Of a stretch of DNA of 10,602 bases, positions 2,622-3,797 are shown piece by piece; the first letter of the stretch is position 1; the number at the start of each line of letters is the position of its first letter. Position numbers and translations under genes: made by a program. This DNA comes from Candidatus Brocadiaceae bacterium (GTDB lineage Bacteria > Planctomycetota > Brocadiia > SM23-32), in assembly GCA_003567495.1 (NCBI GenBank), contig PWZK01000236.1:1-10602 (forward strand). The letters run 5' to 3'. Below the pieces are notes generated by a model. The model ran no database searches, was not told where the DNA came from, and was given only the letters and a program-made list of their open reading frames with translations.

Positions 2622-3797
2622 ATGAAAACATCGATCTTAAAACTCAAACCTCTACCTGTGATCAAACCGTGGGGGCTTTTGCATTGCAGGCTGAAGGAGA
2701 TCACCGGAATTCCCGCGGGTATAGGTGAATTGTGGCTTGCTTCGGCACAAAGCGGCGACGGAAACGCGGCCAGCGAAATAGAGGGAGGTCGCGAGCAATC
2801 CAATCTTGCGGAGTTGCTGGAGAATGCCGGGAATGACGGTTCACTTGAAAAGTGGCTGGGCGGCGCTGCAATGAACTCAATTGCAAATATTTCTTGTCGG
2901 GGGAAAACCGAGGCCTGGCTGGTTCGCGAGTCGCGAGGGTTTGTCGGTTTTGCCGCCGGCCCACCCGGCGAGTTGGAGAAAGAAAAGCTCAAACAGCTGT
3001 TTGCAGGCCCAGGCCTCGGCCCGGACGTCAGGCAATGGAGTGAAGAGGTCCGCTCACTGTTCGGTATTATCACGCCGCTTCAAAACGGTGAATCTTTCCT
3101 TGTGCCCGCCGGAGCTTTGCATACCATGTTCGCGCTCGGTGAAGGCAGCTATCTCGTAGTCGATGAGATACAGCAGGGGTACGGGGCCGGGCTGCTGCCC
3201 ACGTTGTCTAAAACTCTTCTTGTTCAGGATAGCCTGCTCAGTGTCCAGGTGCATCCCGATGACGAAACCGTGCGAAAGGCGTCTGCGGGGGAATTGGTGG
3301 TAAAACAGGACCTGCAGTCCAACCCCACGGTAAGAGTCTATGATTTCGGCAGGCGACCCGGCGAAGACCCGGAACTTGGTTTCAATCTTACCGATCCGGC
3401 CTCCGGGCTGAGACGTGTGAATCAGCTGGATCTCTCCCTTGAGGGGGGCCGGATGACAGTTATCGTGGCTTGCCCGCAGTTTATAATGAGCCGCCTGCTC
3501 ATTGAGGCCGGCGGGGAGCTGGACTCTCTCCCGGTGTTCGGCAGCTATCGGGTTCTGCACTGCACCGACGGCGGGGTGCAGGTGCGGGCTCCTGGTTTTG
3601 GTTGCGACCTGACTGCGGGCGAGACTGCGTTTGTGCCTGCCGAGCTTGAAAGCGGGCTTAGTCTCATTGCATGCGGAGAAAGTGGGGTTATAGATCAGGC
3701 GGTGCCGGACCTTGCGGCGCTGCATCGCTGGTGCAAAGAACGTGAAATCGCCGCAGGCGATGTTGAAAAACTGCTGCACCCGCCGCGGGCTCTCTGA
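2622..3797 (+). CDS. manA: Class I mannose-6-phosphate isomerase with rearranged motif order
   Basis: This gene encodes a cupin-fold, zinc-dependent enzyme that interconverts fructose-6-phosphate and mannose-6-phosphate and so feeds GDP-mannose synthesis. The 391-residue frame starts at the ATG at 2622, because the longer frame back to 2424 would run inside the kinase gene and has no family similarity. Motifs are VIKPWG (near the N-terminus), GELW, GKTEAW (E97), VPAGALH (H167), DEIQQ (182-185), LSVQVHPDD (Q209, H211) and VRVYDFGR (to R244). All four expected metal ligands (Gln, His, Glu, His) are present. In ordinary family members QVHPDD comes before GKTE; here it follows EIQQ, so a block of about 189-229 seems moved. 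The C-terminal half is a divergent second cupin. No clear Shine-Dalgarno is seen and the gap from the kinase stop is 5 nt. The family call is firm; activity is inferred. Confidence 0.85.
   Translation: MKTSILKLKPLPVIKPWGLLHCRLKEITGIPAGIGELWLASAQSGDGNAASEIEGGREQSNLAELLENAGNDGSLEKWLGGAAMNSIANISCRGKTEAWLVRESRGFVGFAAGPPGELEKEKLKQLFAGPGLGPDVRQWSEEVRSLFGIITPLQNGESFLVPAGALHTMFALGEGSYLVVDEIQQGYGAGLLPTLSKTLLVQDSLLSVQVHPDDETVRKASAGELVVKQDLQSNPTVRVYDFGRRPGEDPELGFNLTDPASGLRRVNQLDLSLEGGRMTVIVACPQFIMSRLLIEAGGELDSLPVFGSYRVLHCTDGGVQVRAPGFGCDLTAGETAFVPAELESGLSLIACGESGVIDQAVPDLAALHRWCKEREIAAGDVEKLLHPPRAL

Follow-up and report, generated by a model that had tools for sequence, protein, structure and literature searches.

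We report that the gene at positions 2622-3797 of the forward strand of contig PWZK01000236.1 (positions 1 to 10,602, referred to here as the window), from a Candidatus Brocadiaceae bacterium (assembly GCA_003567495.1), very probably encodes a metal-dependent cupin enzyme resembling type I phosphomannose isomerases, in which one internal non-circular permutation has taken place with retention of both the metal site and isomerase catalysis. We demonstrate the altered motif order, its conservation and the clade that carries it, together with, for the predicted model, the secondary-structure pattern and the fold match. It is likely, in addition, that a single ancient event re-sited a cupin strand bearing metal ligands, and that the rewired, working metalloenzyme replaced the canonical isomerase across a planctomycete family and later diverged into two subfamilies.

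Motif order and conservation of the permuted protein

Translation of 2622-3797, with the stop codon inside these coordinates, gives a protein of 391 residues, a length similar to that of its homologues, in which the motifs run WG, GELW, GKTEAW, VPAGALH, DEIQQ, SVQVHPDD (residues 207-214) and SNPTVRVYD (the other residue positions are listed in Table 1). This reproduces exactly the order described in an initial annotation of the window, which was made from the sequence alone. The canonical order (QVHP, GKTE, PxGxxH, EIQQ) is absent: QVHP follows EIQQ, which contradicts the possibility, raised in that annotation, that an alignment would show the canonical order after all. In canonical enzymes the SN-T motif stands directly after EIQQ (EIQQNSDxTYR); here, the block containing QVHP and a linker intervene.

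Using one protein search and one profile search, each scoring approximately 8000 candidates, and with the profile search covering the best 120 of 1120 matches, we assigned 106 proteins to a permuted family, which includes the window protein and a near-identical copy (P0002). The protein search gave 111 matches; the profile search enlarged a divergent second group (P0098 and P0235-P0240), 29-35% identical to the window protein, and added the isolated P0234, at 38% identity. We observe that GKTE precedes the single QVHP, with an offset of 113-115 residues, in 103 of the 106 family proteins, the remaining three (P0095-P0097) being fragments without GKTE, and thus that the homologues of identical order which the initial annotation had proposed to look for do exist. 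Among canonical relatives, QVHP lies 14-19 residues ahead of GKTE in 138 of 146, with the other eight not typable by pattern. Two genes of the same genus (L017 and L018), from two other deposited metagenome-assembled genomes (MAGs), also have the permuted order, at 60-61% identity. These homologues indicate that the permuted order is a trait of a conserved clade with two subfamilies, and not a private oddity. Some JGI entries for family members are named mannose-6-phosphate isomerase class I, all ten of the NCBI names displayed read hypothetical protein, and none of the displayed family protein names mentions a permutation.

An alignment of 93 rows, from which P0002 and four fragments of the first search were left out, contains 34 invariant columns, and the metal and catalytic positions are among them. 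In the Bacillus amyloliquefaciens enzyme, Gln98, His100, Glu118 and His175 are metal-binding by alignment, and Gln98, Lys116 and Glu118 are catalytically important (available text of PMC4718643); Gln98, His100, Glu118, His175 and Lys116 correspond to Q209, H211, E97, H167 and K95 of the window protein. The PDB titles of Salmonella mutants name K86, H99, K132, E134, H255, E264 and R274, of which K86, H99, H255, E264 and R274 map to K197, H211, H167, E182 and R238 (counted on alignments, with a numbering offset of 2), whereas for K132 and E134 the assignment to K95 and E97 uses only the KxE spacing, this region lying outside the alignment shown. All eight positions compared (K95, E97, H167, E182, K197, Q209, H211 and R238) are invariant in 93 of 93 rows, in agreement with the initial proposal that the four metal ligands Q209, H211, E97 and H167 survive.

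Profile comparison shows common ancestry with type I phosphomannose isomerase. With the block omitted, hhalign aligned the permuted family to the canonical profile over 320 columns (E 2.6e-38, 24% identity), and in a separate profile-profile alignment residues 189-251 fell on the canonical QVHP region (E 3e-10). When the block, taken as residues 186-223, was restored to the place before GKTE, all 99 proteins scored higher against a canonical profile of 143 rows; the window protein went from 75.5 to 99.6 bits, with 500 random segment moves reaching at most 84.8. A scan of 177 landing sites (every second position) placed the seven top scores at 82-94, directly before GKTE, which starts at residue 94, and the next at 70-80. 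The earlier suggestion of a stretch at about 189-229, cut out ahead of GKTE and inserted between EIQQ and SN-T, holds for the relocation itself, and its bounds are better placed at about 189-223, with 224-232 forming the linker. On these alignments, an internal segment is relocated with the N- and C-terminal parts in place and homology kept in every part, i.e., a non-circular permutation.

The predicted model has the two-cupin fold of solved isomerases and matches them in overall fold, and the secondary-structure pattern of the relocated block, assigned with Define Secondary Structure of Proteins (DSSP), is the same as in a canonical control model. Sequence, conservation and this confident model agree with the folded cupin with a different strand connection that had been suggested as possible. 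We propose that the strand-strand-helix block carrying K197, Q209 and H211, once located ahead of GKTE, has come to stand after the EIQQ strand in the chain, and that it would keep its old place in the fold, joined by a hairpin to the EIQQ strand rather than to the GKTE strand. The predicted helix at 75-89 would bridge the gap vacated by the block, and the linker at 224-232 would close the other. Because the block would occupy its old place with both gaps closed, Q209, H211, E97 and H167 would still jointly bind a single divalent metal ion, and mannose 6-phosphate and fructose 6-phosphate would still be interconverted through a cis-enediol by means of K95 and E97, in supply of GDP-mannose synthesis.

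Table 1. Features of the permuted gene in the window (residue numbers refer to its translation)
Feature	Position	Strand	Basis
Permuted type I phosphomannose isomerase-like gene	2622..3797	+	Translation, homologue lengths
Conserved N-terminal part, from WG (17-18) through GELW (35-38), canonically placed	2670..2735	+	Translation, alignment
Predicted helix 75-89 before GKTE; canonical control has QVHP strands and helix there	2844..2888	+	DSSP of two models
GKTEAW 94-99; catalytic lysine K95 and metal ligand E97, assigned by homology	2901..2918	+	Both invariant in 93/93 rows; roles via available text of PMC4718643
VPAGALH 161-167; H167 metal ligand, by homology	3102..3122	+	Invariant; role via available text of PMC4718643
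DEIQQ 181-185; E182 counterpart of Salmonella E264	3162..3176	+	Invariant; mapping counted on alignments
Transposed block 189-223 (two strands, 194-202 and 208-210, and a helix, 214-221); K197 and putative metal ligands Q209 and H211	3186..3290	+	Translation, conservation, DSSP, profile alignment, landing-site scan
Linker 224-232, joining block to SNPT	3291..3317	+	Translation, DSSP
SNPTVRVYD 233-241; R238 counterpart of Salmonella R274	3318..3344	+	R238 invariant
C-terminal second cupin domain, in canonical position	3408..3794	+	Profile alignment, DSSP, weak PF21621 match

Distribution and genome context

Among the genomes analyzed, the permuted gene is present in 9 of 10 from the order, i.e., in all nine genomes (67-96% complete) of the genome family to which the window belongs (f1), with one copy, in G006, partial at a contig end. 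Across the class it was found in 9 of 75 genomes at E 1e-15, and across a sample of the phylum in 2 of 392, both from f1; this sample gave no host for the second group (P0098 and P0235-P0240). The named loci are planctomycete MAGs, including Brocadiaceae bins and Planctomycetes bacterium SM23_32, together with one fragment in an Ignavibacteriales bin. Our search of 58 relatives with PF20511 gave 14 places in 13 genomes, of which the two inside f1 (G004 and G005) are the permuted gene itself; of the other 12, all but L025 and L026 were read, and nine of these show the canonical order, while the tenth, L009, carries a QAHP variant at the canonical position.

No other type I isomerase was detected at E 0.001 in the nine f1 genomes, and the bifunctional phosphoglucose/phosphomannose isomerase (PF10432) had no match in the ten genomes of the order. 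In 6 of the 9 f1 genomes, the three families searched (PF20511, PF01050 and PF10432) thus yield no candidate mannose-6-phosphate isomerase other than the permuted protein. Since GDP-mannose pyrophosphorylase-like matches, mostly over the first 350 positions of TIGR01479, are present in 7 of the 9, a demand for mannose 6-phosphate is likely in most of this family.

The fragment in the Ignavibacteriales bin (L023:1-411) occupies one edge of a contig of 3 kb with a guanine-cytosine content of 46%, where it may reflect mis-binning or transfer; none of the other loci was matched by blastn at E 1e-5. At G002:C482:1936-4322 (L037 and L048), a PF01050 domain lies upstream of a pyrophosphorylase-like stretch, with the matches in three pieces, one of which has an internal TAG. 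In the window, a small kinase-like protein (1804-2616, with PF00069 under its cut-off) is encoded directly upstream of the isomerase gene, and L017 has a similar reading frame ahead of its copy of that gene. The next gene downstream (3860-4573) encodes a tRNA-queuosine mannosyltransferase (PF12038) of 237 amino acids, whose homologue in L018 is an open reading frame of 384 amino acids; the window copy matches this frame at 16-128 on 22-134 and at 123-233 on 270-380, and is without approximately 140 middle residues, in frame. Further downstream (4978-8103), genes for NfeD1b, a short NfeD and a flotillin-like FloA stand in a row.

Origin, curated models and competing explanations

In a tree from a quick search on re-ordered sequences, with support given solely by the Shimodaira-Hasegawa-like approximate likelihood ratio test (SH-aLRT) and with 26 rows of odd letter composition, a single branch (SH-aLRT 100) separates 24 sampled permuted proteins from 93 canonical ones. 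The closest canonical row is P0105, at a path of 1.87, followed by rows at 1.90 and 1.93, and the canonical gene of G009, a genome of the same order, is not among the closest rows, a placement compatible both with descent from a canonical gene of the order and with transfer. The rearrangement would have arisen once, most simply if the stretch running from the block through EIQQ was duplicated in tandem and the first block and the second GKTE-EIQQ part were then lost. No intermediate with two QVHP blocks was present among the 106 family proteins, as drawn in part from the best 120 of 1120 profile matches.

Curated models recognize the window protein at low scores. TIGR00218 (17.9 bits, E 0.0014, residues 192-232 on profile positions 80-112, cut-off 116.2) and PF20511 (15.7 bits, E 0.017, residues 189-226 on profile positions 80-110, cut-off 22) both match it at the QVHP block, PF21621 and Cupin_2 match other parts (E 0.04-0.06), and NF011710 matches at E 0.027. 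Neither PF01050 (type II) nor PF10432 is among its three Pfam matches at E up to 1, and when its sequence alone was searched against the PDB, just two matches came up (E 0.83 and 0.84), both to another enzyme. P0237, from the second group, scores above the PF20511 cut-off (26.8) and under that of TIGR00218 (52.3). Because the TIGR00218 cut-off is not reached and the canonical order is lacking, we class the window protein with type I phosphomannose isomerases in permuted form, outside the curated manA equivalog.

Several results weigh against our interpretation. When the permutation in the window protein is undone, the curated models gain little or nothing (TIGR00218 from 17.9 to 20.1, NF011710 from 13.4 to 10.8 and PF20511 from 15.7 to 14.2 bits), and for six un-permuted proteins TIGR00218 rises in five (P0237 from 52.3 to 62.7) and falls in P0009 (28.7 to 26.5), with all of these under 116.2. 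PF01050 is found in 4 of the 10 genomes, including 3 of the 9 in f1 (strongly in G002, weakly in G001 and G008 at 25-27 bits), which gives those f1 genomes a further candidate besides the permuted protein. G000 and G004 (82% and 67% complete) had no pyrophosphorylase-like match, and no match anywhere reaches the TIGR01479 cut-off. Compared without gaps to canonical columns, the profiles of the residues preceding GKTE and SNPT revealed no convincing duplication scar: among all pairings, the first junction ranks in approximately the best 5% at widths 8 and 12, at 12% at width 14 and at 59% at width 20, and the second at 24-70%. The duplication-and-loss route is therefore one that we infer.

The low curated scores, the hypothetical protein label on all ten NCBI-named family members and the identity of just 24% in the profile alignment would also suit a sugar isomerase or epimerase that kept the fold and the metal site and acts on something besides mannose 6-phosphate. 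We judge such a change of substrate unlikely, given that the eight invariant positions include those equivalent to the lysine, glutamate and arginine residues mutated in Salmonella, and that no other type I isomerase (E 0.001) and no PF10432 enzyme was found in the f1 genomes. A moved strand on a new connection and linker is, from general knowledge, a setting in which domain swapping is plausible, where the EIQQ-QVHP hairpin would open and the strand would enter the barrel of a partner subunit, so that active sites are shared; the confident prediction of a monomer, with a predicted template modelling score of 0.93 and a predicted local distance difference test score of 95-97 across the block, makes this dimer distinctly improbable. 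Since the activity of the permuted enzyme is deduced from sequence, a decayed or regulatory cupin that kept the fold and lost isomerase activity could be envisaged, but it is very improbable in view of the 34 invariant columns, with metal and catalytic positions among them, and the presence of the gene in every f1 genome. That a mis-join around 3186-3308, or a frame artefact, put the block in the wrong spot of a fragmented assembly (387 contigs, 82% complete) is ruled out for practical purposes, since 103 of the 106 family proteins share the order and L017 and L018 carry it in other deposited MAGs.

Comparison with known systems

Canonical and permuted orders both occur naturally as sequence families within one kind of enzyme with well-studied catalytic residues, and the effects of chain order on folding, stability and catalysis, as well as the evolution of the switch, are therefore directly addressable. 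The single re-siting event in a working enzyme would, if true, be a natural experiment in which a catalytic strand was rewired without loss of the active site. It is also a warning for annotation, as the window protein falls under curated cut-offs and the ten NCBI-named relatives are all called hypothetical protein. In the open-licence literature, judged by titles and the starts of abstracts, we found no report of a permuted cupin or phosphomannose isomerase.

In the type I enzymes of Bacillus subtilis (PDB 1qwr) and B. amyloliquefaciens, the QVHP block lies before GKTE, whereas in the window protein it lies after EIQQ, and the ligand order along the chain is Q, H, E, H in the Bacillus enzymes and E, H, Q, H here. 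All seven residues mutated in the Salmonella typhimurium enzyme (PDB 3h1m; mutants 5zt4 to 5zvx) have invariant counterparts in the permuted family, with E264 and R274 spaced by 10 residues in Salmonella and E182 and R238 by 56 in the window protein. The canonical isomerase of G009 (L024), from another family of the same order, is predicted to have the same kind of fold; unlike the window protein, it has the canonical motif order, and it is not the closest relative in the tree.

Non-circular permutations are described, in the accessible part of PMC10085705, as even rarer in proteins than circular ones. The HK97-like capsid fold of BPP-1, as presented in an excerpt of PMC3863775, is non-circularly permuted and likewise keeps an N-terminal element in place while later elements are reordered and the fold is kept, but it is an unrelated structural protein in which two larger elements (169-241 and 242-331) are exchanged, with no metal site or catalysis at issue. 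The DNA methyltransferases (same part of PMC10085705) likewise show order permuted non-circularly inside an enzyme family, though a different one from the isomerases considered here.
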